This document shows, piece after piece, positions 19,140 through 57,098 of a DNA stretch of 64,000 bases (position 1 is the first letter of the stretch; every line of letters starts with the position of its first letter). The stretch is from Candidatus Fermentibacterota bacterium. Lineage in GTDB: Bacteria > Fermentibacterota > Fermentibacteria > Fermentibacterales > JCC-6. Position numbers and translations under genes: made by a program. Below the pieces are notes generated by a model that was not told the DNA's origin, ran no database searches, and saw nothing but the letters and a program-made list of their open reading frames with translations. The DNA lies in assembly GCA_014728175.1 (NCBI GenBank), contig WJMA01000017.1, forward strand, positions 1 to 64,000. Direction: 5' to 3'.

Positions 19140-21173
19140 CTAAAGCTTCTCCGGAATCGCTCTCTGAAGCACCAGCGCGCACCTGCAGGGCAGGTAGACC
19201 CTGATTCGGTGGTTCCGGCTCTCTTCGCTTACCACGTCTTCGGCAAGGTATCGCTGCCCCGGCTCTATCCTGCCGTGTCCGCCGAATCTGCTTTCGTCCG
19301 TATCGAACAGCAGCTCGTACTCTCCGGGAGGGGTCTGGATCGGGTAATCGACGTAGGAGGAGGAGGGATGGAAGTTGAACAAAAAGAGGAGGCCTCCCCG
19401 TTCGAATACCAGCACCTTGTCCCGGTCTTCGCAGCGCAGCAGCCGGGGGTCGGCATCCCTGAGGAGGTGGCGGCTTCGGGCGAGCCGGATCATGACCCTG
19501 TCGAAATCGGCCAGGCGTCCGTACTTCAGTTCCGGGTCGTCGCGAAGGTGCCACTGGCGCCTGGCGTAGTGGTAGGACCAGTCGTTCCCTTCCCGGGGAA
19601 AGTCTATCCACTCCGGATGGCCGAACTCGTTTCCCATGAAGTTCATGTAGCCGAAGCCCGCGGTGGCCAGAGTCGCCAGTCGGATCATCTTGTGCAGGGC
19701 CACGCCCCGGTCCACGGACAGATTGTCATCGGAAAGCCTCATGTGGTGGTACATGTCCGCGTCCATCATCTCGAAGATCAGGGACTTCCCGCCCACCAGG
19801 GCTTGATCGTGGCTCTCGGCGTAACTGATGGTTCTCTCGTCCGGGCGTCTGTTGTTGAGCTCTTGCCAGAGCCAGGACAGGTTCCAGTCCTCGTCCCGGA
19901 AGTCGTTGACCAGTTTGAACCAGCAGTCCGGTATTCCCATGGCCATGCGGTAATCGAAACCGCACCCTCCGTCCTCGACCGGAGCGGCCAGCCCGGGCAT
20001 TCCACTGACGTCTTCGGCTATGGTGATGGCGTCCGGCCTCAGCAGGTGCACCAGCCTGTTGGCCAGCGCCAGGTAGACGTAGGCGTCCACGTCCACGGAT
20101 TCGTCGAAGTATCTGTCGTAGCTGGAAAACTCCACGCCCAGGCCGCGGTGGTGGTAGAGCATGCTGGTTATGCCGTCGAAGCGGAAACCATCGATGCGAT
20201 ACTCGTCCAGCCAGAACCGGCAGTTGGACAGCAGGAAGTGTCTTACCTGGGGCTTGCCGTAGTCGAAGCATCTTGATCCCCAGGCGGGATGGTACCCGCG
20301 GTCTCCCTGGTGGAAGTACTGGTAGGTGGTGCCGTCGAATCTGGACAGGCCCTCCACCTCGTTGGCCGCCGCATGGGAGTGCACCAGGTCCATAACTACG
20401 GATATCCCCATACCGTGAGCCTCGTCCACCAGCCATTTGAGGTCTTCGGGGGGACCGAACCGGGAGGAGGCGGCGAAGAAGCTGCTGACCTGGTAGCCGA
20501 ACGAGGCGTAGTAGGGATGCTCCATGACCGCCATCAGCTGCAGTACGTTGTATCCGGCGTCGACGATCCGGGGCAGCACCTCCTCACCGAACTCGCGGTA
20601 GGTACCTACCCCTTCCCGCTCCTGGGCCATTCCCACGTGGGCCTCGTAGATCAGAGGCGCGGTGGAGTCGCGGGGGGGCGGGTCGTTCAGCCACCTGTAG
20701 GGCTCCGGCGGCATCCAGACCTGGGCGTTGAAGATCTTGGAGGACCGATCCTGGACCACACTTCTGGCGTACGCGGGTATGCGATCCCCGCTTCCCCCGG
20801 GCCATCTCAGGAACAGCCTGTACAGGTCGCCGTGGGACAGGAGGTCGGGAGGGAGGTTCAACTCCCAATCACCGTTGTCGTTGATCCTGCGCAGGACGAG
20901 CGAGTCCGAGACCTTCCAGTCGGAGAAGGTACCCGTCAGGTAAATGGAGGTGGCGTTGGGCGCCCATTCCCTCAGAACCCAGCCCTCCGACGTCCGGTGC
21001 AGACCGTAGTACTCATGGCCGCAGGCGTGGTCGGCCAGGGAGCCGCCGGGCGGGGCTAGAGAGCGCTCCGCCTTTTCTATCCGCTTTCTTCTCCGCTTTA
21101 TCTCGCCCAGGTAAGGCCGGAGGTATGGATCGTCCTCAAGGGCCGATAAGCGGTCTTCTGAGCATCTTCTCAT
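19140..21173 (-). CDS. glgB: 1,4-alpha-glucan branching enzyme, eukaryotic-type (GH13_8-like)
   Basis: The 677-residue protein has an N-terminal CBM48 (about 55-150, YYGLHRTSEGWVLREWAPNATSIYLTGTFSDW) and a GH13 barrel with DGFRFDGITSMLYHHRG near 329 (nucleophile Asp), EDVSGMPG near 387 (acid/base Glu) and YAESHDQALVGGKSL near 454. The DG(I/V)TSMLYHHRG form and the overall layout are those of plant, animal and some bacterial branching enzymes rather than the E. coli group. It makes alpha-1,6 branches in glycogen. The start overlaps the end of glgA by 38 bases with only one suitable ATG. It is the last gene of the glycogen operon; no clear hairpin follows. Confidence 0.94.
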   Translation of the reverse strand: MRRCSEDRLSALEDDPYLRPYLGEIKRRRKRIEKAERSLAPPGGSLADHACGHEYYGLHRTSEGWVLREWAPNATSIYLTGTFSDWKVSDSLVLRRINDNGDWELNLPPDLLSHGDLYRLFLRWPGGSGDRIPAYARSVVQDRSSKIFNAQVWMPPEPYRWLNDPPPRDSTAPLIYEAHVGMAQEREGVGTYREFGEEVLPRIVDAGYNVLQLMAVMEHPYYASFGYQVSSFFAASSRFGPPEDLKWLVDEAHGMGISVVMDLVHSHAAANEVEGLSRFDGTTYQYFHQGDRGYHPAWGSRCFDYGKPQVRHFLLSNCRFWLDEYRIDGFRFDGITSMLYHHRGLGVEFSSYDRYFDESVDVDAYVYLALANRLVHLLRPDAITIAEDVSGMPGLAAPVEDGGCGFDYRMAMGIPDCWFKLVNDFRDEDWNLSWLWQELNNRRPDERTISYAESHDQALVGGKSLIFEMMDADMYHHMRLSDDNLSVDRGVALHKMIRLATLATAGFGYMNFMGNEFGHPEWIDFPREGNDWSYHYARRQWHLRDDPELKYGRLADFDRVMIRLARSRHLLRDADPRLLRCEDRDKVLVFERGGLLFLFNFHPSSSYVDYPIQTPPGEYELLFDTDESRFGGHGRIEPGQRYLAEDVVSEESRNHRIRVYLPCRCALVLQRAIPEKL

Positions 21174-22671
21174 ATAGATCTATGTATTGTTTTGCCGTAA
21201 CGGCATGGTTGAATCTTTCTTCGCTCTCCCGCATTATCCTGGCGATCTGCTCCTTCCGGATCGTGCTCGGCAGCCGGTAGAAGTCCATCGCCCGGTCCAT
21301 CGCCCAGCGCAGGCCCGGCGGGTCCCAGACCTCGAATACGAAACCGTTTCCCTCGTTCCTCGATACATCAAGGGGGGACACAGTATCGTGTAGACCTCCG
21401 GTGTCCGATACCACCGGCAGGCAGCCGTAGATGCTTCCTATCATCTGGGGAAGGCCGCACGGCTCGAACAGCGAAGGCATGATCATGAAGTCCGCTGCCG
21501 CGTATCCCAGCCTGGAAAGATTCTCGTCGAAGTCGCAGACGGCGACCCTTCCGTGCAGGTCGTGGAATCTGGCTATGTCATGGAAGTGTCTCTGGTAAGA
21601 TCCGTTGGCTATCACGGCTATCTGCAGCCCGCTCTCCCAGTAGTCGGAGACCATCTCGTACATGATCTCGGCAAGCAACTGGGGTCCCTTTTGAGTCGGA
21701 TCCAGCCTGGACGGCCAGAAGAACAGGGCTGCCGTGGGATCCTCGGCCAGACCCAGCCTTTCCTGCAGTCGGAGCTTGTTCTTTCTTTTGGCCTGTGCGT
21801 GATCCTCCCAGGAGTAGTTGACCTCGATACCGGGGTCGGTGCGGGGATTGAAAGAGGGATTGGGGGCGTTGAGGATTCCGAAGGCGCATCCGGCCAGCAG
21901 CTTGTTGGCCAGCTCGCGGCGAACGCTGTCCGGAACGAATCTGTGACGTCCCTCGCATACCTCCCGCAGAAAGGTGGGGCTGACCGTGTTTACGAAATGG
22001 GCGGCGAATATCCCGCTGGTAAGAAGGTCGACTGGATTGGACCAGCGGGTCTCCTCGTAGGTGTGGGAAGGGCGGACGTAGTAAAGGTCCGTCCAGAACT
22101 CGGCCGCGTCTATGCCCCTGTCCTCAATCTCCGACAGGGTGATCTCCTGGGTGTGGATGTTGTGCACCGTGAAAAGGCAGGGCACGCCGGTCCTTCTGGC
22201 CATCGCCGGTACCAGCCCGGTCATCCAGTCGTTGCAGTGGATGAGGTCGGGATCGACTTTGGGAAGGATGTTGTTGATCACCTCCCTCTGGAAGGCAAGG
22301 CTCAGCTTCTTTCCCTCGCCATGGTAGCAGCTGTACACCTCGTCCCGATAGTGGAATATCCTGTCCTCGGCCAGATGTATCCGGGCGTCGCTGAGAATCT
22401 CCCGGTAGGCCCTGAGCTCACGGTCTATAAGCTTGCCGGCCTCTATGTTGAACATCCGTCGATAGTGGGGAAGAGCAACGTGGACGTCGGCGCCGAGCTC
22501 GAAGAGCGCGGCCACCAGCGAGGCGGAGACGTCCGCCAGCCCGCCGGCTTTGGCCCTCAGGGTTTGGGCTATGTTGCCCATCTCCCGGGGAAGGTAGGTG
22601 ATCTCCGGGGTTACCACCAGTATTCTCGGGCCCCTGGAAGCGCCTTTCGAAGTCCTCCGGCGGGCCGTCAC
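21136..22671 (-). CDS. glgA: Glycogen synthase (GT5)
   Basis: The 511-residue protein starts its homology at PRILVVTPEITYLP and has the donor-binding AKAGGLADVSASL, a middle HNIHTQEITL, and the C-terminal MIMPSLFEPCGLPQMIGSIYGCLPVVSDTGGL of GT5 enzymes. It extends alpha-1,4-glucan from a nucleotide-glucose donor, usually ADP-glucose in bacteria. GTG 22671 overlaps the stop of the phosphorylase gene as GTGA, the usual sign of coupled translation; the longer in-frame opening to 22773 only shadows that gene. No glgC lies in this operon, so the source and type of donor are open. Confidence 0.93.
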   Translation of the reverse strand: MTARRRTSKGASRGPRILVVTPEITYLPREMGNIAQTLRAKAGGLADVSASLVAALFELGADVHVALPHYRRMFNIEAGKLIDRELRAYREILSDARIHLAEDRIFHYRDEVYSCYHGEGKKLSLAFQREVINNILPKVDPDLIHCNDWMTGLVPAMARRTGVPCLFTVHNIHTQEITLSEIEDRGIDAAEFWTDLYYVRPSHTYEETRWSNPVDLLTSGIFAAHFVNTVSPTFLREVCEGRHRFVPDSVRRELANKLLAGCAFGILNAPNPSFNPRTDPGIEVNYSWEDHAQAKRKNKLRLQERLGLAEDPTAALFFWPSRLDPTQKGPQLLAEIMYEMVSDYWESGLQIAVIANGSYQRHFHDIARFHDLHGRVAVCDFDENLSRLGYAAADFMIMPSLFEPCGLPQMIGSIYGCLPVVSDTGGLHDTVSPLDVSRNEGNGFVFEVWDPPGLRWAMDRAMDFYRLPSTIRKEQIARIMRESEERFNHAVTAKQYIDLYEKMLRRPLIGP

Positions 22672-25232
22672 TGACCGTCGGCCCAGGTTATGAAGCCGGG
22701 TATCAGCCTCCGCCACTCGTCTCCGGAAGGGACCACCCGGGCGGTCAAGCCGAAACGCCCCGTCTCGCGACACTCGACCTCCTGCCTGTAGATTAGGCCT
22801 CCGTCGGGCGTTTCCTCCACCATCTGCATCTTCTGCACGTTGGTTCTCACTATCTTGCTCTCCGAGTTGACGGGGCCGTAGTAGGCCTCCACGTCAACCT
22901 CTTCGGGGGTAAGCTCTCCCAGGCGTACCACCGCTTCCACGGTGAACCTGTCACCGACGTGCAAAGCCGAGATGTCCCTGTCGGTACGGGGAACCCCCAT
23001 TCCGATGCCGTCCCAGTGGGAGCGAAGCCTTTCCGCCTGTTGCACCAGCCTTTGGGCCTTCGCCGCATCGTTCTCCCAGAGCTCCCCATGGGCCTCTAGC
23101 GCCGGGCGGTACATCAGTCTGTCGTACTCGCCCACCATGCGATGCGTGGTGAAGTAGGAAAAGGCGGTTTCTATGGAGCTCTTCATCATTCTCACCCAAT
23201 TCAGGGGGATGCTGCTCTCGGAACGATCGTAGAAGCAGGGGATAACCTCATCCTCCAGAAGATTGTACAAGGCGTTGGACTCGACGGCGTCCTGGTACTC
23301 GGTGTTGTCGTACTCCTCACCCTTGCCGATCACCCACCCGCAGTCGGGGTCGTAGGCCTCGGCCCACCAGCCGTCCAGTATGCTCAGGTTGAGAGCGCCG
23401 TTGATGGCCGCCTTCATCCCCGAGGTGCCGCTGGCCTCCATGGGTCTGCGGGGGGTGTTGAGCCAGACATCCACGCCCTGCACCAGGTACCTGGCCATCT
23501 GGATGTCGTAGTCCTCCAGGAATACCATACGCTGCCTCATCCCTGGCCTTTGGGCGAAGCGCACCAGCTCACGTATGATGCTCTTGCCCGTCTCGTCGGC
23601 CGGATGGGCCTTTCCGGCGAAGATCATCTGGATCGGCCGGTCTTCGTTGCTCAGAATGCTCTCCAGCCGCTGGGGATTCTTCAGTACGAGGTGGGCCCTC
23701 TTGTATTCCACGAATCTCCTGGCGAAGCCCACGGTGAGGGCGTCGTGGTTCAGCACGCCCCGTATTTCCTCTATCTGGGCCTTGGTGGCGTGTCTGGCGC
23801 TGTACTGCCTCTCCGCCAGCTCCCGCGCGGTCCTCACCAGCCTGGACCGGCCGGTCTCATGCGCCCGCCAGAGCTCCTCGTCGGGAATCTGGGAGATCTG
23901 GGACATGCCGTCTTCGTCCAGCTGTTTTGTTCGCCACTCCGGGCTCAGATAGGAGTCCAGCAGATCGCCGATGTCCGACAGCACCCAGGATGCGGCATGA
24001 ATGCCGTTGGTCACGTGGCTTATGGGTATCTCATCCTCCGGCCTGTCCGGCCAGAGATGGGACCACATGGAGCGGGTGGTGCTTCCGTGCAGGTCGCTTA
24101 CCCCGTTTGCGAAATGCGAGAGCCGTAAGGCGAGAACGGTCATGTTGAGCTCCCCGTTCTCGCTGTCGTTGCCGGGGGACCTTCCCCAGGAGATCACCTC
24201 CGAGGGGTCTAGACCGGTCTCGTCCCGCATGGCTTTTAAATGCTTCCCCACCACCTCGGAAGAGAAGGTCTCGTTGCCGGCGGGAACGGGAGTATGCGTG
24301 GTGAACACGCTGGTTCGCCCCACGATCTCGGCCGCGGTCCTGGTGTCGAGTCCCCGGTCCTTGACCAGGTGGGAGATGCGGGCCAGGGCGGCGAACGCGG
24401 CATGCCCTTCGTTCATGTGGCAGACCGGAGGGTCGAACCCCATACGGAGGAGAGCCTTGAAGCCGCCGAACCCCAACAGAAACTCCTGTCTCAGGCGCAC
24501 CTCTCTGTCGGAGTCGTAGAGGTAGGAGCCTACGCTTCGTAGCTCCGGGGGGTTCTCGGTCGTATTCGGGTCCAGCAGCAACAGGGGAACCCGCCCCATG
24601 TCCGCCCGCCATACGGCGGCCATGAGCCTTCCCTCGGGCAGGGGAATGGACACGTATATCTGCGAGTTCCGGTCGTTGGTTACCTTCCGCAGAGGAAGGT
24701 GATGGACCTCGTTCTCCAGCCAGGATTCCTGCTGCCATCCCTCCTCGTCGAGGTACTGATGGAACCTTCCGCAGCGGTACAGCAATCCCACCGCCACCAG
24801 GGGAAGGTCCAGGTCGGAGGAAGATTTCAGATGATCGCCCGCCAGGCAACCCAGGCCGCCGGAGTATATGCGCAGGCTTTCGTGAATTCCATACTCCAGG
24901 GAGAAGTAGGCTATGGTCGCCCTTTCGGGGTCGCTCCTGTCTTTCTCGCCGGCGTCGGACACCTCCTTCTCGAACCGTTCCCTGACCCTGGCCATACGGC
25001 TCATGAAGCCGTCGTCCTCCAACAGGGCCTGGAAACGCTCCTGGGGTATCTCGCAGAAAAAAGTAAACGGGTTGTGGTCCTTCTCCTTCCACAGCCTGGG
25101 GTTGATACGCCTGAACAGCTCGATGGCGTCCGGGTTCCAGCACCACCAGAGGTTGTGGGACAACGTTTCCAGGAATTCCAGCTCGGACGGTAGAGCGGGG
25201 GCTACGTTGAAGAGCTGTATCTTTTTACTCAA
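22668..25232 (-). CDS. glgP: Alpha-glucan (glycogen) phosphorylase, GT35
   Basis: The protein has about 854 residues. It has the N-terminal DUF3417 segment (LSHNLWWCWNPDAIELFRRINP) of the short alpha-glucan phosphorylase group. The PLP-binding region reads TSGMKAAINGALNLSILDGWW, with Lys for the Schiff base. MNEGHAAF and FTTHTPVPAGNE blocks are also present. It releases glucose 1-phosphate from glycogen. The start is uncertain: TTG 25232 has GGAAGG and GGTGGG upstream, and GTG 25262 is the longest option. It is preceded by the CBM48-like gene and overlaps glgA by four bases. Confidence 0.93.
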   Translation of the reverse strand: MSKKIQLFNVAPALPSELEFLETLSHNLWWCWNPDAIELFRRINPRLWKEKDHNPFTFFCEIPQERFQALLEDDGFMSRMARVRERFEKEVSDAGEKDRSDPERATIAYFSLEYGIHESLRIYSGGLGCLAGDHLKSSSDLDLPLVAVGLLYRCGRFHQYLDEEGWQQESWLENEVHHLPLRKVTNDRNSQIYVSIPLPEGRLMAAVWRADMGRVPLLLLDPNTTENPPELRSVGSYLYDSDREVRLRQEFLLGFGGFKALLRMGFDPPVCHMNEGHAAFAALARISHLVKDRGLDTRTAAEIVGRTSVFTTHTPVPAGNETFSSEVVGKHLKAMRDETGLDPSEVISWGRSPGNDSENGELNMTVLALRLSHFANGVSDLHGSTTRSMWSHLWPDRPEDEIPISHVTNGIHAASWVLSDIGDLLDSYLSPEWRTKQLDEDGMSQISQIPDEELWRAHETGRSRLVRTARELAERQYSARHATKAQIEEIRGVLNHDALTVGFARRFVEYKRAHLVLKNPQRLESILSNEDRPIQMIFAGKAHPADETGKSIIRELVRFAQRPGMRQRMVFLEDYDIQMARYLVQGVDVWLNTPRRPMEASGTSGMKAAINGALNLSILDGWWAEAYDPDCGWVIGKGEEYDNTEYQDAVESNALYNLLEDEVIPCFYDRSESSIPLNWVRMMKSSIETAFSYFTTHRMVGEYDRLMYRPALEAHGELWENDAAKAQRLVQQAERLRSHWDGIGMGVPRTDRDISALHVGDRFTVEAVVRLGELTPEEVDVEAYYGPVNSESKIVRTNVQKMQMVEETPDGGLIYRQEVECRETGRFGLTARVVPSGDEWRRLIPGFITWADGQ

Positions 25233-25317
25233 TACTATGCACCCACCTTCCGGTCGAGGCACCTGGGGTCTGGCTGGTAAGCGGCCGGGCTTCTACCGGC
25301 GTTTCTTTTCTTACGGA

Positions 25318-25596
25318 TCACTCCACGACTATCACGCTGTTAAGCGATCCGAGGCCGTTCGGTGTCCAGTCCGGGCACTCCGGATCTATCTGCCAGACTC
25401 CGTCGGTGATGAACTTGTACTCGTGCCTGCCCTTGGGAAGCATCAGGGTCGCTTCGTGCACCCCGTCCCGGTAACGGAGCTTCTTTTGTTTGGGGTTCCA
25501 GCCGTTGAAGGTCCCCGCTACGTACACCTCGGTGTCTTTTTCGGCGTGGAGCCTGAAGGTAACCTTTCTGCGTCCCGCCAAAGGTGATCTGGCCAT
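25318..25596 (-). CDS. CBM48/AMPK-type glycogen-binding small protein
   Basis: The 92-residue protein is a single early-set carbohydrate-binding domain: VTFRLHAEKDTEVYVAGTFNGW, a LPKGRHEYKFITDGVW block and GSLNSVIVVE. This is the pattern of the AMPK beta glycogen-binding domain. The conserved Trp and Lys residues for glucan contact are present. There is no catalytic domain. It may tether enzymes to glycogen or regulate them; this is inferred from its place between the debranching and phosphorylase genes. ATG 25596 follows AGGAGG by six bases. Confidence 0.85.
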   Translation of the reverse strand: MARSPLAGRRKVTFRLHAEKDTEVYVAGTFNGWNPKQKKLRYRDGVHEATLMLPKGRHEYKFITDGVWQIDPECPDWTPNGLGSLNSVIVVE

Positions 25597-25690
25597 TTCC
25601 TTCCTCCTCAACTCGAGCGTGGAGCCGACTTCGGTGCCATTTCCCCGTGCGGTAATATGAAGCCGGGGTTCACGGGGTGTTATCCCAGTG

Positions 25691-28600
25691 TCATGAATCT
25701 TTCAAGAAAATAAGCACCCTGAGCGTCTCCGAGCATCCCCAGGCCTGCGCCCCGCATCCCCGGAGATGATGCGGATCGTCTCCGTCCAGTATCTCCGGCA
25801 CCTGTCCCACGCAACCGCGGTCGATTACCTCAGTGCAGCTTCCCAGCAGCGCCAGGGCCTTTTCCCGCACCTTCCCGCCGTAGGTCAGGTACAGCGCCTC
25901 GACGTAGGAGGGAAGCAGCCAGGTCCAGGCCGTTCCGTTGTGGTAGGCCGGTTTGCGGCCGGTGTCATCTTCGCCCAGATATCTCCCCTGGTAAGGGCGC
26001 AAAGGATCGTTCAGGGGCTTTCCACCAAGGGTGATGGGCAGCTCGTAGCTCACCGGCCTGTCGGCCAGGCTACGCAAGCCTCCGGGCACCAGAAGCTCCC
26101 CGCAGGACCAGAGAATCTGTCCGCACAGACTCGGATCGTCAACCGCCCCCATCGTGACCGCGAAAAGCTGGTTGGGTCTGAGATGATCGTCTGCGTCAGC
26201 CTTCTCCGCAGGGCATCCGGGGCCGCAATGCAGGCAATCGCTGAGCCATTCGGCCCCCGTCTCCCCGGAGAGCCGCCTGACGAAGTAGCGGTGGATGGAG
26301 CTCTTCACCTTATCGGCCAGTCGGTTCCACTCCGGGTCGTCGTCCAGCCGGGCCAGTAGCCGCAGCGCATGGTACCACAGGGCCTGTATCTCCACCGGAT
26401 AGCCCTCCCGGGGCGTGCCGGGAGGATGATCCGTATCCATCCATGTGAAATGGGCCGGGCTGTGGATCAGGCCGCTCTCGGGGTCCATCCTTATGCCATT
26501 CGGCGTTCCGTCCACGTAATTCCGGCCGATGGAGAGCATCACGTCCCGCATGGTTCGTCCGCCGCAGTCGGATTCCGGCAGATCATCGACGCCAAAGTCC
26601 AAAAGGTCGGAGCATGCTACGAAAAGCCAGAGGGGGGCATCGGAGGTGTCGCGGTTGGAGTCGTCCTCTCCCCGGATCATGTTGGGAAGGGTGCCGGAAC
26701 GCTCGAAACCCGCCAGACACTCCAGAATGCCCTGGGCCCGTTCGATCATGCCCGCAGCGACCATGCCCCTGAGAAAAACCAGCGTGTCCCGGCCCCAGTC
26801 CAGGAACCAGGGGTAGCCCGCGATCACCGCGTGGCCCCCTCCCCGTCGAACAACGAAGTCATCCATTGCCAGGCGGAGGGTTTCCTTTAGGGACGGTTCG
26901 ACCGGATGGTCGCTCCTTCCATCTTGCGGGGAGACCCCGGATTCGCTCCCCGGAGCCGAGGCCGTGATTATCATCTCCCCGCCTCCGTTCATGGTGGTGG
27001 TGAGGTAGCCGGGGCTGAAGAGATCCGAGGAGTCTCCCAGTCCCCGCTCGGCGTCCAGAGGATGCCCGACCATGTAGGTCCACTCCGGTTGATGCACGTA
27101 CTCGGCGTTGTAGGCGGTGACCTCCAGCCTTTCGTTCTTTCCCGGAGAGAAGACGAAGCCGTTGCCCGTGGGGGTAACGCTTGGGGGCCACGACTGCTCC
27201 GGGCCGGCGTAGGCCTTCGTCTTTTCGTGGTTCGTGCGCATCTCCACGTCCGGCCTTACTATCAGCCGAACCGGCACCTCCGACGGAAGGTCGACGGCGT
27301 CTTCCGCAGAGCACTCCCGCCTCAGACTGATCCGGGTGGCGTTTTGGCCGTAGATCATCGCCACCCGGATGGTCAGGGAGACCGTCCTTCCCTGTCCCAC
27401 CGGAACCAGGAATCGCCACGACACCTCTCCACCCGGTTCTCCGTGGAAGGACCGCAGACAGTGAACGTCGATTGGCCGGGAGTAGTCCCGCCAGACCAGC
27501 CAGGTCCGGATACGGGTAAGCATGACCGTTCTGTCCGAAGGGAAGTCCGGCTCTGGATTGGCCGCCAGAAGAGCGTCGTACTGGCTTCGGATCTCTCCCC
27601 ACGATCCCCGTACCTGAGCCATTCCTCCCAGCCCGTTGGTGGATATCGCGTAGATTCCCAGCTCCTCGACCTCCCGCCTGTCGAAGGAAGTTCTGATGGG
27701 CGGCGTCGCCTCGGCCAGCACCAGCAGGTTCGATTTCGAATGCACCGTTCGGTCGGGACGGTGAACGGTCAGGTCCAGTCTGCACCTCACGTGACTCTCG
27801 GCGGCCGGGGGAGGGCGCAGGAGTACGAAGTGGTAACCTTCCTCGGCCTGGATCGATCTCTCGGTCGAACCCGTCTTCCCCTGCGTTTCCAGCCTGAGGC
27901 TGAATCGGTAGTCCGCCCTGGCGTAAAGAAGACAACCGGGAGGTACCATCACCACCCTTCCGGTGTCCTCCGGCCATCTCCATGGAACCAGGGGAACGGG
28001 CTCCCCTCCGGACGCCCGGCGGCAGAACCTCCGGGGATTCCGGCCCATCTCCCGGGCGGCGGCATCCGAGTCTTCCTCTTCCAGGTCGGTTTCGCTTCGG
28101 TAGTGGGTGAGTACTTCCAAGGCCTTCTTGCGCAGAGCCTGCTTCCTGATCCGCTCCGGAACGTTACGGTCGTGTCGCGGGGAATCTTCCAACAATCGCA
28201 GGAGCTCTTTCTCGGGAGTCAGGCATAGAACCTCTCCCGGCCGAAGCCTGACCATCGCCGGTTCCAGGCCCTCGGGGAGGCGTACCTTCCGTTCGGACAG
28301 CAGATCGTATAAAACCCCCGGGTAAAGATCCGCTGGATGGTCCCAGTGGACTTCCTCCTCCCGGTCGTGGCTGAGGTTGGCCAGAACGAGCAAAGGCTTT
28401 TCCTGCCCGGCGGATATTCTCAGAACGGCCAGGGCGTTTCCTCCTCCCCGGGTTACGATCTCCGGGCGGCCTCCGGCGTGGAAGGCAGGATGGACCCGCA
28501 GTATCCGGTTCAGCCTTGCGATCCATTCGACCTGGTTGCTCTCGCTTCCCCAGTTGAGCGGGGGGCAGCCGTGTACGTCCACCTTCTCCGTCGCCAGCCA

Positions 28601-29932
28601 CTCCACCCCGTTGGTAATGCCGAAGGCGCCCTCGATGGAGCACAGGGCGGTCACCGCCGTGCGCATGCGGGCAAAGCTGGGCGAGGTGGCCGCCAACCTG
28701 TTGTTGTCGTGGGTCTCGGCGAAGTGAACCAGGTTGCCCAGATGCATGGAGGTCTCCAAGCATCCGGGGAGGTAGGCCTCTACCTGGTCGCGATCGTAGT
28801 TCTGGAACAGCTCGGAGTAGGCCCAGTCGAGGTCGGCCTCGTCCAGCAGCCGGTCCTGAACCGCTTTGCGCCCACCCAGCCCTTCCAGTACGAAAACGGT
28901 ATCCGGGTACCGAAGCCTGACCTTGGCCACCAGGTACTTCCAGGCCGGACAGGGCACCATGTAGCCGGCGTCGCATCGGAAGCCGTCCACTCCCCGGTCG
29001 CACCAGAACAGGAAGACGTCCGCCATGTACGACCACAGCTCTTGGTGGGAGTAATCCAGCCTGGCCAGATCCTCCCAGGTAACTCCCCAGGCTCCGGGGG
29101 ACTCGAACGTCCGGTCCGCTCCTCTTACGAACCATTCCGGATGATCGATCTGCAGTTTCGATGCCCATCCGGTATGGTTTATTGGCAGGTCCAGGAACAG
29201 CTTGGCCCCTCTTGAATGCACCGCGTCCACCAGCTCGGCGAACTGCTCGAGGGGGGTGGTCCGGCGGTCGAACTCCGCCATTGAAGGATCCACGTCCCTG
29301 AAGTCGAGCACCGCGAAAGGGCTTCCGAAGCTGCCCATGCGGGCATAGGTGGTGGGGATGGGGTGGATCGGCAAAAGCTGGATTATTCGGCAGCCGAGAT
29401 CTCCCACGATGTGGTCCAAAGCCCCGATCAGGTCACGAAAGGTCCCGGAAGGGGGAATGACGGCGTATCCTTCGCGCTGCAGGGCCGCGGCCCGGGAAGA
29501 CGGATCGCTTCCGCTCTGCGATCGGTCACGGCCCATCTGCCTGACGAAGGAGGTGTAGAAGGAATTTGCGGAGCAGTACTCGGCGGGCTCCACCTTGAGC
29601 ACCACGTTTTCTCCCTCTGGCCAGACCGGCTGGTCTGAGTCCTCGGGCACCACGAAGGCCTTTGCCTCGAATCTTCCCACCTCCAGGAGAGGAAGCGTCA
29701 ACGCGAAGCGCCCGTTTCCTTTGGCCTCCATGGGAACGTCGTGCCAATCCTGGTAAAGACGGGGAGATCCGTCCTCGACACGCTCGACTATTTCGGTCCA
29801 ACGAACGTCGGCATGGCCCAGGTTGGTGCGCAGGTAGGCGCGGCCGGAATCGGAGCCGGTGGTCAGCTCGAACCGGATCAAGTCTCCGCTGTGGCTGATC
29901 AGGCGACTGCCCGGGGCCGGTATCTGCCTCAC
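25691..29932 (-). CDS. Bifunctional glycogen debranching enzyme: GH13 glucanotransferase fused to amylo-1,6-glucosidase
   Basis: The 1413-residue protein has a GH13 barrel in its first half, with GVDGFRCDAGYM near 316 (nucleophile Asp), VFVLEGLGG near 346 (acid/base Glu) and FAETHDNNR near 405. Its last 400 residues are a GDE_C (amylo-alpha-1,6-glucosidase) domain opening with AGYPWFLDWGRDT near 1039. This pairs the two activities of eukaryotic debranching enzyme, 4-alpha-glucanotransferase and 1,6-glucosidase, in one chain; most bacteria use a separate GlgX or a stand-alone GDE_C. A GTG at 29932 lies eight bases after the upstream stop. Upstream codons in the frame only shadow the TerB-like gene. 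Confidence 0.88.
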   Translation of the reverse strand: MRQIPAPGSRLISHSGDLIRFELTTGSDSGRAYLRTNLGHADVRWTEIVERVEDGSPRLYQDWHDVPMEAKGNGRFALTLPLLEVGRFEAKAFVVPEDSDQPVWPEGENVVLKVEPAEYCSANSFYTSFVRQMGRDRSQSGSDPSSRAAALQREGYAVIPPSGTFRDLIGALDHIVGDLGCRIIQLLPIHPIPTTYARMGSFGSPFAVLDFRDVDPSMAEFDRRTTPLEQFAELVDAVHSRGAKLFLDLPINHTGWASKLQIDHPEWFVRGADRTFESPGAWGVTWEDLARLDYSHQELWSYMADVFLFWCDRGVDGFRCDAGYMVPCPAWKYLVAKVRLRYPDTVFVLEGLGGRKAVQDRLLDEADLDWAYSELFQNYDRDQVEAYLPGCLETSMHLGNLVHFAETHDNNRLAATSPSFARMRTAVTALCSIEGAFGITNGVEWLATEKVDVHGCPPLNWGSESNQVEWIARLNRILRVHPAFHAGGRPEIVTRGGGNALAVLRISAGQEKPLLVLANLSHDREEEVHWDHPADLYPGVLYDLLSERKVRLPEGLEPAMVRLRPGEVLCLTPEKELLRLLEDSPRHDRNVPERIRKQALRKKALEVLTHYRSETDLEEEDSDAAAREMGRNPRRFCRRASGGEPVPLVPWRWPEDTGRVVMVPPGCLLYARADYRFSLRLETQGKTGSTERSIQAEEGYHFVLLRPPPAAESHVRCRLDLTVHRPDRTVHSKSNLLVLAEATPPIRTSFDRREVEELGIYAISTNGLGGMAQVRGSWGEIRSQYDALLAANPEPDFPSDRTVMLTRIRTWLVWRDYSRPIDVHCLRSFHGEPGGEVSWRFLVPVGQGRTVSLTIRVAMIYGQNATRISLRRECSAEDAVDLPSEVPVRLIVRPDVEMRTNHEKTKAYAGPEQSWPPSVTPTGNGFVFSPGKNERLEVTAYNAEYVHQPEWTYMVGHPLDAERGLGDSSDLFSPGYLTTTMNGGGEMIITASAPGSESGVSPQDGRSDHPVEPSLKETLRLAMDDFVVRRGGGHAVIAGYPWFLDWGRDTLVFLRGMVAAGMIERAQGILECLAGFERSGTLPNMIRGEDDSNRDTSDAPLWLFVACSDLLDFGVDDLPESDCGGRTMRDVMLSIGRNYVDGTPNGIRMDPESGLIHSPAHFTWMDTDHPPGTPREGYPVEIQALWYHALRLLARLDDDPEWNRLADKVKSSIHRYFVRRLSGETGAEWLSDCLHCGPGCPAEKADADDHLRPNQLFAVTMGAVDDPSLCGQILWSCGELLVPGGLRSLADRPVSYELPITLGGKPLNDPLRPYQGRYLGEDDTGRKPAYHNGTAWTWLLPSYVEALYLTYGGKVREKALALLGSCTEVIDRGCVGQVPEILDGDDPHHLRGCGAQAWGCSETLRVLIFLKDS

Positions 29933-29940
29933 GGTGGGGC

Positions 29941-30519
29941 TCAGGCTTCTATGCCGAAGCCGGTGGCAACCCTGGTCAGGGCCTCGTCTTCCCTGAAGTT
30001 GACCTCCCCGTCGCTTCGAGCGAGCTCCCTGAGCCAATCGTAGAAGCTCTTCAGCATGACCCGGCCGAACTCGTAATCCTTGGCGATCTGTCTCATCATG
30101 AGAGCGGCGTACTCCACGTTCATGTCCGGCGCAACGGTGGCCAGGGCATCGTCTACGACGTCCTCCAGGCTCTCCGGGTCGATGTCCAGCCTCATGGTTT
30201 CGACCAGCTCCCTGCGGAAGCGCTGGAGCTGAAGCCTCTCCCCCCAGGTGAACTTCTCGTCCACCGCGATGACGTAGGCGACCAGCAACCTGAACAATGT
30301 CCACAAAGCCTGGATGTCCGGACAGGTGTCACTCTCCCCAAGGGGGAACAATCTCTGACCGCAGCCCGGGCAGGTTCTGCAGGTATGCAGACCACCGAAT
30401 CCCCCTGAGGCGAACCGGGTGCCGCAACCGCAACAGGTTACCTCGACGGATACGGCGGACAACTCTTCCCGCGATGGCGGGTCTGCGGTCAGCTCGGCCA
30501 GTTTTTTCGCGACATCCAT
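29941..30519 (-). CDS. Zinc-ribbon TerB-like protein, first gene of the glycogen operon
   Basis: The 192-residue protein has an N-terminal zinc ribbon (VTCCGCGTRF...CRTCPGCGQRLF, two CxxC pairs) and an alpha-helical TerB/DjlA-like domain (VAYVIAVDEKFTWGERLQLQRF ... VMLKSFYDWLRELARSDGEVNFREDEAL), with acidic residues placed as in metal-binding TerB proteins. The function is unknown. Its stop is eight bases from the debranching enzyme start, so it is co-transcribed with glycogen genes. It could be a sensor or assembly factor, but that is only context. It diverges from the aminotransferase gene. Confidence 0.75.
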   Translation of the reverse strand: MDVAKKLAELTADPPSREELSAVSVEVTCCGCGTRFASGGFGGLHTCRTCPGCGQRLFPLGESDTCPDIQALWTLFRLLVAYVIAVDEKFTWGERLQLQRFRRELVETMRLDIDPESLEDVVDDALATVAPDMNVEYAALMMRQIAKDYEFGRVMLKSFYDWLRELARSDGEVNFREDEALTRVATGFGIEA

Positions 30520-35470: not shown

Positions 35471-38143
35471 TTAATATCGGTCGAACCAGTCGGCCCTGTA
35501 TATGGGCAGCTGCTCTCTGAGTAGGGCGTAGACAATGTCGCCCTTTTCTACGCAGGTGGCGGCAACCTCCCTGAACCGGACCACCAGATGGCTGAAGTCC
35601 AGATGGTCGAGGTCTTTGTCTTTCGGGTTGAGGTCGGAATTGGCGGTGATGAACCCGCGCATGGTCTCGGTGGCCATCCGTCTGAGAAGCTCCCAGAGCT
35701 CTCTGCCGTCACGGGCGGCTATGGCCCTACCCAGGGACAATGAAACCGACAGTATCGCGTTCATCCCCAGAAGGGCCTTTCTCTGCATCACTTCGATCAG
35801 CTGGTCATGGTCGGCGGACCTGGATAGCCTGTTCTCCTGGATGGCCCGCTCGCACTCCAGCCTCAGGAGCTTTCTGTCCACGTCCAGTATCGATCCCAGG
35901 TCGCACAGCCTTCTGCCCTCGAAGGCTTCCGCAATCACCATGTCGATGTGCTCCACGGCCCTCTTGCAGCCCATCCCCCCGTAGCGCCGGGTATCCTTCC
36001 AGAGGGCGGTCAGCGCCTCGTTTCCCTTGCCCAGAACATCGTCTTCCCTTAGATCCGGCCGGAAACGGAAGGTCCCGTCCTCCTGCCTGGCGAACAACTC
36101 CGGGTAGCTGGAGGTGACCTCCCCCGGCTGGATGATGCTGTCGACGTAGTGAACCGCCTCGTCAACGCCCGCGGAGGTTCCCAGAGGGGTGGAACCCTTG
36201 AACCTTATGGTTCCCGCCCTTCCCAACAGAACGGTCGCGGCCACCGAAGGGATGCCTGCGTTAGTAGCCTCCTCCTTGCCGTAAATCCTGTGTATGGGCA
36301 TCAGACGCAACACCTCGCCCATCATACTCTTCTCCGAGGCGGCCTGGTCCAGATCCAGGTCGTCCCTTCCGGTCAAGGTACAGGCCAGATCACCCAGGGC
36401 CTCTCTCATGCGGTCCTTCTCCTCCTCTGAGATCTCCTGGAGGCTCTGCTCGGCCAGGGTGAGTATCTCCACCACCCGACCGTACTTCTGCAACCGCTCG
36501 GTGTTGGCTCCTCCTCCCGCCTTCAGTCCCACCGCGTTCATGGCAGTAGCGATCTCCGCCTCGAAGGGATCGTTGGGTGATTTGGATCTGTGAGATACGA
36601 CCAGCTCGGCACCGTATGCCAGGGAGGTCAGCATGGCCAACAAGGTTTCAGACAAAGTTCCTATCTGGTTGGCCTTGATGAGGGTGGCGTTTATTTCCCC
36701 GTTGCGCGCGCAGTTCTCTATGGACTCGTCCTTGGTAGTCACCAAATCGTCACCGATGACCATTATGCTCTCTCCCAGCCCTTCCAGACCGGAATCCGGA
36801 TCGCCGTTCATCAGCAGCTTCCAGCCGGCATGGTCCAGCTCTCCGAATCCGTCCTCGATGGAGAGAATCGGAATGTCGTCCTGGTCCATCGCCTCAAGAT
36901 ACAGCTGCAGGATCTCGTCCCTGCTCATATCCATCTTGCCCTTGTCTCGCCAGAAGCGGTACATCCCTATGGACTCTTCCTGCCCGGTTTCCATCCGGTA
37001 AGCGTTTTCCAGCTCCGATGCAGCCGGGTCGAGCGCGATGGCCACGTCCACGCCCGGCTGGTATCCACATTCGAGTATGGCCTGCTTCATCATTCTCCAC
37101 ACCCGCTGCTCCGGGACCCTGTCCCGGGGCTCGGGCTCCACGTAGGGCGCCAGGCCCCCCTCCAGCCCCACGCCCATAACCTTGGCGCCGGGGGCGGACT
37201 CTATGATCTCCTTGAGCCGGCTCTGGAGGTTGACGGTCATCTCCTGGGCCTCCTCGTAGGTCTGCGCCGAGAGGGGAACGAACATGCTCTCCTGCATGCT
37301 TACGTTGCTCTCCGGATACTCCTTCTCCGTGTGTCGACCTCCCATCGCGCAGTTCCTGAACTGCCACGGCGCTCCCACGGTGGTTCCGTCGCTCATCTCG
37401 ACCATCTGCAGCCTGGAGTTGAGAATCCTCTCTCGGGTCTCGGGCACCCTACCTATCCAGCCCCCCCGGGAGCCGCTCCTGCCGGCTTGCTCGGAAGCCT
37501 GTCCCTCCCTCGCCCGGTACTCCCCGAGCTTTCCCCGATCAGCGAGGAACCTGTCGAGAAGGCCGACCACTCCTGGAGCGAGGAAGAACCTACCCCCGTA
37601 GATGGCCCAACCGGCGTTCAGCGCCAGTCCCAGCCCTATGCCCAGGGCCGCCACGGGCAGACACACGCTTGCCAGCACGGCGCTCCATACGGGGCCCGCG
37701 GCGGATACAGCGAGGTTGTACGGTGCGTCTGGGGCGAAGTTGCCGTTCTCCTTCTTCACCCCGTAGAAGCCGCCCCAGGGTATGGTGATGAACATCTTGG
37801 CCAGCCATGCCGCCTTCCCGCCCGCGCCCTGTCCTCGAGCCTTGTCGGCCGCTTCCTGGGACGACGGGTTTAGGGCGTTCAGCCTGGCGGCGGTGAGGAA
37901 ATGGCCCATCTCGTGAATGGCTATACCCACGTGCCAGGAGATGTAAAGGATACACACAGATACAATGGTTTCCCAGCTGAGGAACATGAACCTCAGGGTC
38001 TCCAGTCTGTCCAGGGAGGCCCTGGGTAGACTCAGGACGGACGAGATGAAGGCGGCATGGAAGGAGACCAGCTTGTGATTGGCTATCACCCAGCCTCTTT
38101 CCAAAAGGCTCCGTCCGCATTCAGGACGAGGCCCTGCTTCCAT
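35471..38143 (-). CDS. Site-2-protease-like membrane domain fused to a domain-swapped (circularly permuted) enolase
   Basis: One unbroken frame of 890 residues. Residues about 45-200 hold membrane helices, HEMGH at 77-81 and a NLAVSAAGP block near 143-150, as in M50 peptidases. An enolase barrel follows with GGRH (His 271), MQESM (Glu 285), GLEGG (Glu 328), ALDPAAS (Asp 372), SIEDG (Glu 430), GDDL (Asp 465), IKANQIG (Lys 490), SHRS (518-520) and LKAGG (Lys 541). These match the yeast enolase catalytic and Mg ligands. Only then comes the canonical N-terminal domain: NAGIPSVAATVLL, the PLGTSAG loop (Ser 657) and KALLGMNAILSVSLSLGRA. The last 70 residues are unassigned. ATG 38143 has GAAGGT five bases upstream; homology begins well after it. 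Confidence 0.85.
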   Translation of the reverse strand: MEAGPRPECGRSLLERGWVIANHKLVSFHAAFISSVLSLPRASLDRLETLRFMFLSWETIVSVCILYISWHVGIAIHEMGHFLTAARLNALNPSSQEAADKARGQGAGGKAAWLAKMFITIPWGGFYGVKKENGNFAPDAPYNLAVSAAGPVWSAVLASVCLPVAALGIGLGLALNAGWAIYGGRFFLAPGVVGLLDRFLADRGKLGEYRAREGQASEQAGRSGSRGGWIGRVPETRERILNSRLQMVEMSDGTTVGAPWQFRNCAMGGRHTEKEYPESNVSMQESMFVPLSAQTYEEAQEMTVNLQSRLKEIIESAPGAKVMGVGLEGGLAPYVEPEPRDRVPEQRVWRMMKQAILECGYQPGVDVAIALDPAASELENAYRMETGQEESIGMYRFWRDKGKMDMSRDEILQLYLEAMDQDDIPILSIEDGFGELDHAGWKLLMNGDPDSGLEGLGESIMVIGDDLVTTKDESIENCARNGEINATLIKANQIGTLSETLLAMLTSLAYGAELVVSHRSKSPNDPFEAEIATAMNAVGLKAGGGANTERLQKYGRVVEILTLAEQSLQEISEEEKDRMREALGDLACTLTGRDDLDLDQAASEKSMMGEVLRLMPIHRIYGKEEATNAGIPSVAATVLLGRAGTIRFKGSTPLGTSAGVDEAVHYVDSIIQPGEVTSSYPELFARQEDGTFRFRPDLREDDVLGKGNEALTALWKDTRRYGGMGCKRAVEHIDMVIAEAFEGRRLCDLGSILDVDRKLLRLECERAIQENRLSRSADHDQLIEVMQRKALLGMNAILSVSLSLGRAIAARDGRELWELLRRMATETMRGFITANSDLNPKDKDLDHLDFSHLVVRFREVAATCVEKGDIVYALLREQLPIYRADWFDRY

Positions 38144-55461: not shown

Positions 55462-57098
55462 GGGTCCACTTAACGATTGCCAGCTCGTTGTATACTAGTC
55501 ACTTAACGTCTGCTGGTGGTATATTGGGTGCAAGGGTAATCGCAATATACGTGGGAAATGCCTGCATCTGATGGGGGATTCGGTGTACCGTAATCGACGC
55601 GATCAACTGGAGTTCGAGGACTTTTATATACCGTTCAGGGGCGGACTGCGCAGCGACAATCGCTGGGTAAGACTGGCCAAGCTGATACCCTGGGACAGGG
55701 TTGAGAAGCGCTACGAGGAGTCCTTCACTCCCGGAAAGGGGCCTCATGCCAAGCCCGTGCGGATGGCCTTGGGAGCTCTCATCATCAAGGCCAAACTGGA
55801 CCTCACCGACGAGGAGACGGTGGAGCAGATACGGGAGAATCCCTATCTGCAGTACTTCATCGGTCTTGAGGGTTACACGGATGAGGCTCCATTCGATCCC
55901 AGCATGATGGTTCACTTCAGGCGTCGGCTTGGCGCGGAGGTAGTGAACGAGTTCAACGAAGATATTGTTCTGGAGCGTGTTGGCTCCCATGAGGAACGGG
56001 AGGCCACAGACAGGGATGATACAGACGACGATGATGACGGCGACGAAGGTACCTCAGGTGGTTCTGGCAACCATGGTCAGCTGCTGATAGACGCTACGTG
56101 TATCCCTGCGGACATTCGGCACCCTACGGATCTGTCGTTGTTGTCGGAGGCCCGCGAGAAGACCGAGGAGATGATAGATGTCCTCCATGAGCCGTTCTGT
56201 GGACAGCGTCCCAAGCCGAGGACCTATCGTCGGGTAGCCCGCAGGCGATATCTCGAGGTCATCAAGCAGAAGCGTGCCCGCGGGAAGCGCAAGAGGGCAG
56301 AGAAGCGATACCAGCTTGGTTGCATCCGTCGCAACCTGAAGTCGATCGGCGAGCTGATGTCCCTTCGGGGTCACGGTACTCTCACCGCTCGGCAGAAGTC
56401 GCTCCTGCCCGTCATTCGGGAGCTGTACGGGCAGCAGCTGAAGATGTACGAGCAACGTACGAACAGTCATCCGGATCGCATAGTCAGTCTGTCACAGCCT
56501 CATGTCCGCCCGATAGTCCGGGGCAAGGCCGGCTCCCGCACCGAGTTCGGTGCCAAGCTGACCATAAGCCTTGTTGACGGCTACAGTGTGATCGAGCGGG
56601 TAAGCTGGGACGCCTACAACGAATCGTGTGACCTGAAGGACCAGGTGGAGCGATACAGGAAGAGATTCGGCTGCTATCCGGAATCGGTTCATGTGGACAA
56701 GCTCTACAGGAATCGGGTGAACCGGCGGTACTGCCGTGCGAGGGCCATTCGTATCTCCGGTCCCCGCCTGGGCCGTCCCCCGAAGGATGCCAGGATACGA
56801 GCCACGATAAGAAGGCAGGTCCGGGATGATCTTGTCAAACGCAACGAGGTAGAGGGAGCCTTTGGAGTTGGTAAGCGAAGATACACGCTTGACCGCCTGA
56901 AGTGCCGGCTGAAGGAAACCAGTGAGTCGATGATAGCCCTGGTCCATCTTGTGATGAACCTGGAGAGGTGGCTGAGGGCCACTTCTCTGTCTTTGCGGAT
57001 TCGAAGGCTGTCGGATTTGCTGAATCCGTGTGGTTGGTTTGAAAAGGCAATGACAAACGCTCTACAAAGGTGCTTCAGCGTTGCGTAATTCAGGAGGC
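55462..57098 (+). mobile_element. IS5/IS1182-like insertion sequence (about 1.6 kb, ends tentative)
   Basis: The proposed element is bounded by the CCTACATTA direct repeats. Its left end reads GGGTCCACTTAACG and its right end, on the other strand, GCCTCCTGAATTACG; only about half the bases agree, so inverted repeats are imperfect or the ends are misplaced. It holds one intact transposase gene. CACTTAACG also occurs twice inside the left end (55467-55475 and 55500-55508), perhaps transposase-binding sites. Confidence 0.45.
55571..57088 (+). CDS. DDE transposase, IS5/IS1182-like
   Basis: The 505-residue protein has the N-terminal DUF772 domain (RWVRLAKLIPWDRVEKRY, ALGALIIKAKLDLTDEETVEQI, NPYLQYFIGL) and a DDE core: Asp in LLIDATCIPADIRHPTDLSLL, Asp in SVHVDKLYRNRVNRRYC with the SGPRLGRPPKD loop, and Glu in VKRNEVEGAFGVGKRRY. 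An acidic low-complexity stretch of Asp lies near 145-155. Nothing is missing, so it may be active. ATG 55571 and GTG 55583 (after GGGGGA) are possible starts. Confidence 0.92.
   Translation: MGDSVYRNRRDQLEFEDFYIPFRGGLRSDNRWVRLAKLIPWDRVEKRYEESFTPGKGPHAKPVRMALGALIIKAKLDLTDEETVEQIRENPYLQYFIGLEGYTDEAPFDPSMMVHFRRRLGAEVVNEFNEDIVLERVGSHEEREATDRDDTDDDDDGDEGTSGGSGNHGQLLIDATCIPADIRHPTDLSLLSEAREKTEEMIDVLHEPFCGQRPKPRTYRRVARRRYLEVIKQKRARGKRKRAEKRYQLGCIRRNLKSIGELMSLRGHGTLTARQKSLLPVIRELYGQQLKMYEQRTNSHPDRIVSLSQPHVRPIVRGKAGSRTEFGAKLTISLVDGYSVIERVSWDAYNESCDLKDQVERYRKRFGCYPESVHVDKLYRNRVNRRYCRARAIRISGPRLGRPPKDARIRATIRRQVRDDLVKRNEVEGAFGVGKRRYTLDRLKCRLKETSESMIALVHLVMNLERWLRATSLSLRIRRLSDLLNPCGWFEKAMTNALQRCFSVA

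Follow-up and report, generated by a model that had tools for sequence, protein, structure and literature searches.

A circularly permuted, probably active enolase fused to an M50-like membrane domain in more than 10 bacterial phyla

Enolase is a near-universal enzyme of glycolysis and is among the most conserved of central metabolism. Here, we describe a bacterial gene that encodes an enolase with its two domains in reversed order, placed behind an M50-like membrane domain. Judged from its sequence and from those of its relatives, the product is likely a membrane-tethered, circularly permuted, and active enolase of PEP metabolism, and it belongs to a widespread family. In the mechanism that we favor, the M50-like helices would hold the protein in the membrane, the barrel and the displaced N-domain would fold back into a complete enolase active site, and the conversion between 2-phosphoglycerate and PEP would take place at the surface of the membrane. 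Certain Phycisphaerae lineages would have exchanged their ordinary eno for the permuted enolase; elsewhere, it would form a PEP-metabolizing module with a fused or adjacent PPDK-like dikinase, or would work beside a normal eno; and in the organism studied here, it would be an additional enolase, probably acquired laterally. The domain order, the conserved residues, the distribution, the association with a missing canonical eno, and the linkage to PEP-pathway genes are observed; catalysis, localization at the membrane, and why the enzyme would be tethered are the parts that we infer. Tethering to a membrane, as the original prediction proposed, is plausible, whereas its alternative, a sensor set free by cleavage, would be hypothetical. 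Our guesses as to the benefit of tethering are that PEP is handed to a user in the membrane or, in the long form, that the enolase is coupled to the dikinase.

Results

The gene lies in a window of 64,000 nucleotides (the whole stretch of DNA that was analyzed), which is part of a 293-kb contig in a 2.6-Mb genome, a MAG of the Fermentibacterota. It occupies positions 35471 to 38143 of the minus strand as an unbroken frame of 890 codons, with the ATG at 38143 and a TAA stop that ends at 35471. Directly before the ATG stands GGAAGGAAGG, with GGAAGG as a ribosome-binding-like stretch. From the N terminus, the 890-aa product consists of the M50-like membrane domain (residues 1-241; 37420..38143, minus), which carries HEMGH at 77-81, AAGP at 148-151, and D197; the enolase C-terminal TIM barrel (36464..37360, minus), as recognized by PF00113, hhalign, and invariant residues; a linker (residues ~561-607; 36323..36463, minus) that is helical in the structural model and poorly conserved; the displaced enolase N-terminal domain (residues 608-825; 35669..36322, minus), which was recognized by hhalign and PF03952 and contains the Ser39 loop TPLGTSAG (S657); and a variable, helical C-terminal tail (residues 826-890; 35471..35668, minus). 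After the tail region, other family members continue into a dikinase module or into 210 further residues. The ORF, Pfam, and hhalign thus bear out the single frame that had been read from the DNA, running from a HEMGH membrane part through a barrel to an N-domain. An assembly join and chance are excluded because the same domain order recurs in 66 genomes from independent projects, and decay into a pseudogene is ruled out by the single open frame and the invariant active site.

The composition of the gene is ordinary for the contig (GC 61% and GC3 79%, versus 56-62% and 66-77% in seven other genes). The gene stands alone, its neighbors being a divergent secreted-protein-like gene and small unrelated genes. 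Elsewhere in the window, minus-strand glycogen/alpha-glucan genes were recognized by eye at 19140-30304, at a distance of several kb from the gene described here; they comprise a branching enzyme, a glycogen synthase, a phosphorylase, an amylase, and a debranching-type gene. A transposase-like ORF of 505 aa was likewise recognized by eye at 55571-57088 of the plus strand.

Both halves of an enolase were recovered, in reversed order. Pfam places Enolase_C (PF00113) at residues 262-560 (E 2e-45 to 2.7e-44, with a score above the cut-off) and Enolase_N (PF03952) at residues 709-819 (E 4.5e-9), that is, C-terminal of the barrel. In hhalign comparisons of family profiles, the barrel corresponds to residues 162-434 of canonical enolase (prob 100, E 4e-52) and residues 608-825 correspond to residues 17-157 (prob 99.3, E 3.6e-20; here the profile covered residues 576-830), so that both halves align to canonical enolase over their entire length. 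The curated eno model, TIGR01060, matches in two stretches of reversed order with 190 bits and does not reach its cut-off of 300.

The residues of yeast enolase were located by motif alignment (GGxH, QE, EGG, SIED, GDD, IKxNQIG, SHRS, K-G, and GxSxG) across 67 sequences, whose identity to the window protein goes down to 45%. The counterparts of His159, Glu168, and Glu211 are H271, E285, and E328; those of the metal ligands Asp246, Glu295, and Asp320 are D372, E430, and D465; and those of Lys345, His373-Arg374-Ser375, and Lys396 are K490, H518-R519-S520, and K541. The catalytic residues of the barrel are E328, K490, H518, and K541. In the displaced domain, the Ser39-loop residue is S657. Every one of these is invariant (67/67), and all of the key residues named in the original prediction are therefore present. 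One position counts against the assignment: the catalytic Glu is preceded by Leu at residue 327, a position that is Asp in the canonical enolases aligned here.

Structure prediction had been suggested as a check, and an AlphaFold2 model built with 53 sequences (pLDDT 85, pTM 0.84) contains the expected barrel and N-domain elements. In the displaced N-domain, these are strands at 616-626, 632-640, and 646-652 followed by helices. All of the top 50 Foldseek matches listed are enolases. Residue conservation and the pTM suggest that the displaced domain packs on the barrel. The open frame, the full-length alignment of both halves, and the invariant residues support a genuine circular permutation, which the original prediction had preferred to decay. 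That prediction had also suggested that the stretch ERILNSR before the barrel might be a remnant of the old N-terminal strand, left by a tandem duplication. The family consensus there is VKxxMLxxRMQ; since ERILNSR is not conserved in the family, it is no evidence for such a strand, and we rejected it as a trace of duplication. A duplication route to the permutation is possible.

Searching 84,980 genomes for the membrane domain gave 97 places, of which 80 were kept and 66 were near full length. The order membrane domain, barrel, N-domain holds in all 66 near-full-length homologs, which come from more than 10 phyla. Hosts include Planctomycetota, Verrucomicrobiota, WOR-1/Margulisbacteria, WOR-3, Cloacimonadota, Chlorobiota, and Aminicenantes, together with Acidobacteriota, Gemmatimonadota, Krumholzibacteria, Myxococcota, Desulfonatronum, Chloroflexota, and Gammaproteobacteria. 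A weak match to the displaced domain in a further genome (G045, E 3e-4) was discarded, as the ORFs there are unlike enolase. The permuted barrels make up one clade apart from the canonical enolases (SH-aLRT 100), with long branches, so a single origin is the simplest reading. Several forms can be told apart by length: form A (about 900 aa; the window, Phycisphaerae, and one Verrucomicrobiota), form B (2026-2367 aa with the dikinase extension, or split into two genes in L116 and G036), form C (about 1,180 aa; WOR-1), form D (about 830 aa; a second Phycisphaerae clade), and others of 800-970 aa in WOR-3, Cloacimonadota, and elsewhere.

The window protein falls inside form A with a support of 100, and its nearest relatives are from Planctomycetota (66% identity to L046). 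The gene was absent from 40 other genomes of the window's phylum. The sole relative in the window's order that carries it, recorded as Candidatus Fermentibacterales (G036), has a copy that resembles form B and is 47% identical to the window protein. From this placement, the form-B-like copy in the relative, and the 40 genomes without the gene, lateral gain by the window's lineage from a Planctomycetota-like donor is probable. In the relative, a lysine-2,3-aminomutase-like radical SAM gene (L033:868-2355) lies directly upstream of the permuted enolase.

The original prediction had reasoned that the absence of a canonical eno from the same genome would make this the working enolase. For the window's organism this fails: a normal eno is present (G000:C14, E 3e-115), so the permuted gene is an additional enolase there. 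The reasoning does apply to a Phycisphaerae clade and to many form-A hosts, where the canonical gene is missing. Among the form-A hosts, canonical enolase was not found in 15/31, while phosphoglycerate kinase (PGK) was missing in 3/31 (Fisher p = 0.0016). Because these hosts had been found via the gene itself, we also took an unbiased sample, 248 genomes of the Phycisphaerae class to which G063 belongs, 13 of which carry the membrane domain. Full-length canonical eno is missing from 11/13 genomes with the permuted gene versus 16/235 without it (p = 2e-10); a match of canonical strength (E < 1e-100) occurs in 2/13 carriers (G113 and G069) versus 219/235 non-carriers. PGK is retained in 10 of the 11 eno-less carriers. 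Nine of the 11 belong to one subgroup, judged from their scores (A5 E 1e-66 to 1e-71), and carry a divergent gene (G181, G188, G284, G296, G302, G307, G312, G331, and G359; L124-L132); six of the nine gave a near-full-length protein, falling in one clade (form D). The absence of eno in these nine genomes may therefore be a single loss, and the association partly reflects shared ancestry, yet patchy incompleteness explains it poorly. A second PF00113 match was seen in G302, G331, G359, and G362. The hosts without eno are MAGs, and 100-N gaps occur in those records of the set that are titled chromosome; two single-contig "chromosomes" without eno (CP070678.1 and CP070675.1) were accordingly dropped as proof, since their record series contains such gaps, and the class-wide statistics took their place. 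A normal eno is kept by the window's genome and by about two thirds of the host genomes, and so the main enzyme is not necessarily the permuted copy. Certain Phycisphaerae lineages seem to use it in place of the ordinary eno.

Six WOR-3-like members (L076, L088, L096, L101, L103, and L104) have a canonical eno directly downstream on the same strand. This arrangement would suit a heteromeric anchor, in which a weakly catalytic permuted copy brings soluble canonical enolase, itself dimeric or octameric, to the membrane. The invariant catalytic residues and the many hosts with no canonical enolase to recruit speak against such an anchor, and we regard it as very unlikely. In three WOR-3 members, a 4Fe-4S ferredoxin-type membrane gene lies directly upstream (L096:6267-7181, L104:5703-6587, and L101:570-1448).

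Other neighbors, too, link the gene to the PEP pathway. In WOR-1, a degenerate PPDK-like gene lies beside or near the permuted enolase in 4/4 members, and one cluster (L053:1288-17498) holds a PPDK, two degenerate PPDK-like genes, the permuted enolase, a divergent PGK (167 bits versus about 500 for ordinary PGKs), a DeoC/LacD aldolase, and an FBPase_2-like metallophosphatase, which looks like a parallel set of glycolysis paralogs. Another locus (L072) has a gene of the histidine-phosphatase superfamily (phosphoglycerate-mutase-type) immediately upstream. Apart from these PEP-pathway links, mostly lineage-local synteny emerged when all flanking genes were compared for a common partner. The gene links point to the 2-phosphoglycerate/PEP segment of central metabolism.

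The dikinase module is C-terminal in 22 members, and L116 and G036 encode it separately, in a gene next to the permuted enolase. In form B, the extension resembles PPDK (TIGR01828, E 1.7e-66 in L098; PDB PPDK, E 2e-72) and retains the PPDK motifs GGKG, VRGGSVFSMPG, LQxR, and RGGSTSHAA. Nucleotide-binding (ATP-grasp) and phosphohistidine domains are present, with H1109 and the motifs invariant among the long forms (A4), and about 650 predicted helical residues precede the PPDK-like part. The PEP/pyruvate barrel (PF02896) was not found in the extension proteins of L098 or L034 (L098:12512-16075 and L034:428-4042), and the significant PDB fold matches of this barrel-less module come from its PPDK part. 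The long forms could accordingly be read as a coupled machine in which the ATP-grasp and phosphohistidine domains use the permuted enolase in place of the PEP/pyruvate barrel of PPDK. The retained motifs, the missing PF02896, and the recurrence of the module in fused, adjacent, or nearby position favor this reading, which elaborates on the tethered enolase and does not contradict it. Against it, the short forms, including that of the window, manage without the dikinase half, and the window's genome encodes only a PPDK-like protein of ordinary length (923 aa) and one further PEP-utilizer (613 aa), neither of them on the contig of the window. Moreover, we know of no precedent for an enolase site that donates or accepts a phosphoryl group. 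We give a low probability to a membrane-bound machine that would unite ATP-driven phosphohistidine chemistry and the 2-phosphoglycerate/PEP step in one polypeptide, with the window's short form as its enolase half, a half that would serve as the sole glycolytic enolase in related Phycisphaerae.

The membrane domain is M50-like, with a putative protease function. Peptidase_M50 (PF02163) matches residues 72-288 weakly (E 0.0009-0.016, under the curated cut-off). The same model matches 29/37 family members at E<=1, with a best E of 1.2e-5, and the members with listed scores reach 15-24 bits versus a gathering cut-off of 27.2. A PDB profile search with the domain gave no match. Hydrophobic stretches lie at about 25-45, 55-80, and 155-200; H77-E78-M-G-H81 and D197 are inside hydrophobic predicted helices (57-87 and 178-201), and AAGP 148-151 is in a predicted helix later than HEMGH. 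H77, E78, H81, N143, P151, and D197 are invariant (67/67), and H23, H29, and H71 are invariant wherever present. The proposed fusion of an enolase to an M50-like domain is thus supported. In the site-2 protease (S2P) SpoIVFB, the zinc ligands are H43, H47, and D137 (PMC11486902).

The chief rival to the tethered enolase takes these residues at face value: the enolase part would sense 2-phosphoglycerate or PEP and thereby control M50-like cleavage of a membrane substrate. Such a protein would need the HExxH and distal Asp that are invariant here and that S2Ps require for zinc binding (PMC11486902), and a sensor would likewise conserve its ligand-binding residues. A rhomboid protease gene lies directly upstream of the permuted enolase in one member (L076:9220-9882). 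A metabolite-gated protease leaves unexplained, however, the frequent lack of another enolase in the hosts and the fusion or linkage to PPDK, PGK, and phosphoglycerate-mutase-type genes; the M50 similarity is below the curated cut-off, and no common candidate substrate gene turned up in the neighbor clusters. There is an analogy in SpoIVFB, which carries a regulatory CBS domain. On balance, we consider a gated protease rather unlikely, and we favor the tethered enolase.

Discussion

A permuted enolase that occurs in more than 10 bacterial phyla, and is apparently able to replace the ordinary gene, indicates that a core glycolytic enzyme can be rewired. The family also makes membrane-run lower glycolysis a testable idea, and protein folding and the way permutations arise can be studied in it as in a natural experiment. 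There is a consequence for annotation, too: since the permuted protein falls short of the cut-off of the curated equivalog model, it may be in use in genomes that are scored as enolase-free.

We rate the domain order and the context as undescribed for an enolase, the assignment as enolase drawing on residues, domains, and circumstantial function. The original prediction knew of no described enolase in this order. To our knowledge, none with a differing domain order has been described, and neither a permuted enolase nor an M50/PPDK-enolase fusion was found in the literature searched, most subscription journals and preprints being outside it. The protein is, however, not a one-off and belongs to a widespread family.

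Three known systems can be compared with the permuted enolase. With site-2 proteases of the Peptidase M50 type, such as SpoIVFB, it shares an HExxH in a predicted membrane helix, an AGP motif, a distal Asp, and a C-terminal soluble part. It differs from them in a profile score below the curated cut-off, in the additional invariant His23, His29, and His71, and in a membrane domain that has no solved-structure homolog by sequence search; an S2P with an enolase attached is not known to us. PPDK (TIGR01828) has its nucleotide-binding and phosphohistidine domains matched by the C-terminal extension of the long form, which, unlike PPDK, lacks the PEP/pyruvate barrel, contains ~650 helical residues with no PPDK counterpart, and is fused to a permuted enolase; the window protein is without the PPDK-like part. 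Canonical enolase (phosphopyruvate hydratase, TIGR01060; PF03952 and PF00113) has both domains and the metal and catalytic residues in common with the permuted protein, and that of the same genome is 37% identical to the window barrel. Unlike canonical enolase, the permuted protein has its domains reversed and a membrane domain in front, carries an HTEKEYPESN insertion at the His159 loop and a Leu for Asp before Glu211, and forms a separate, long-branch clade.
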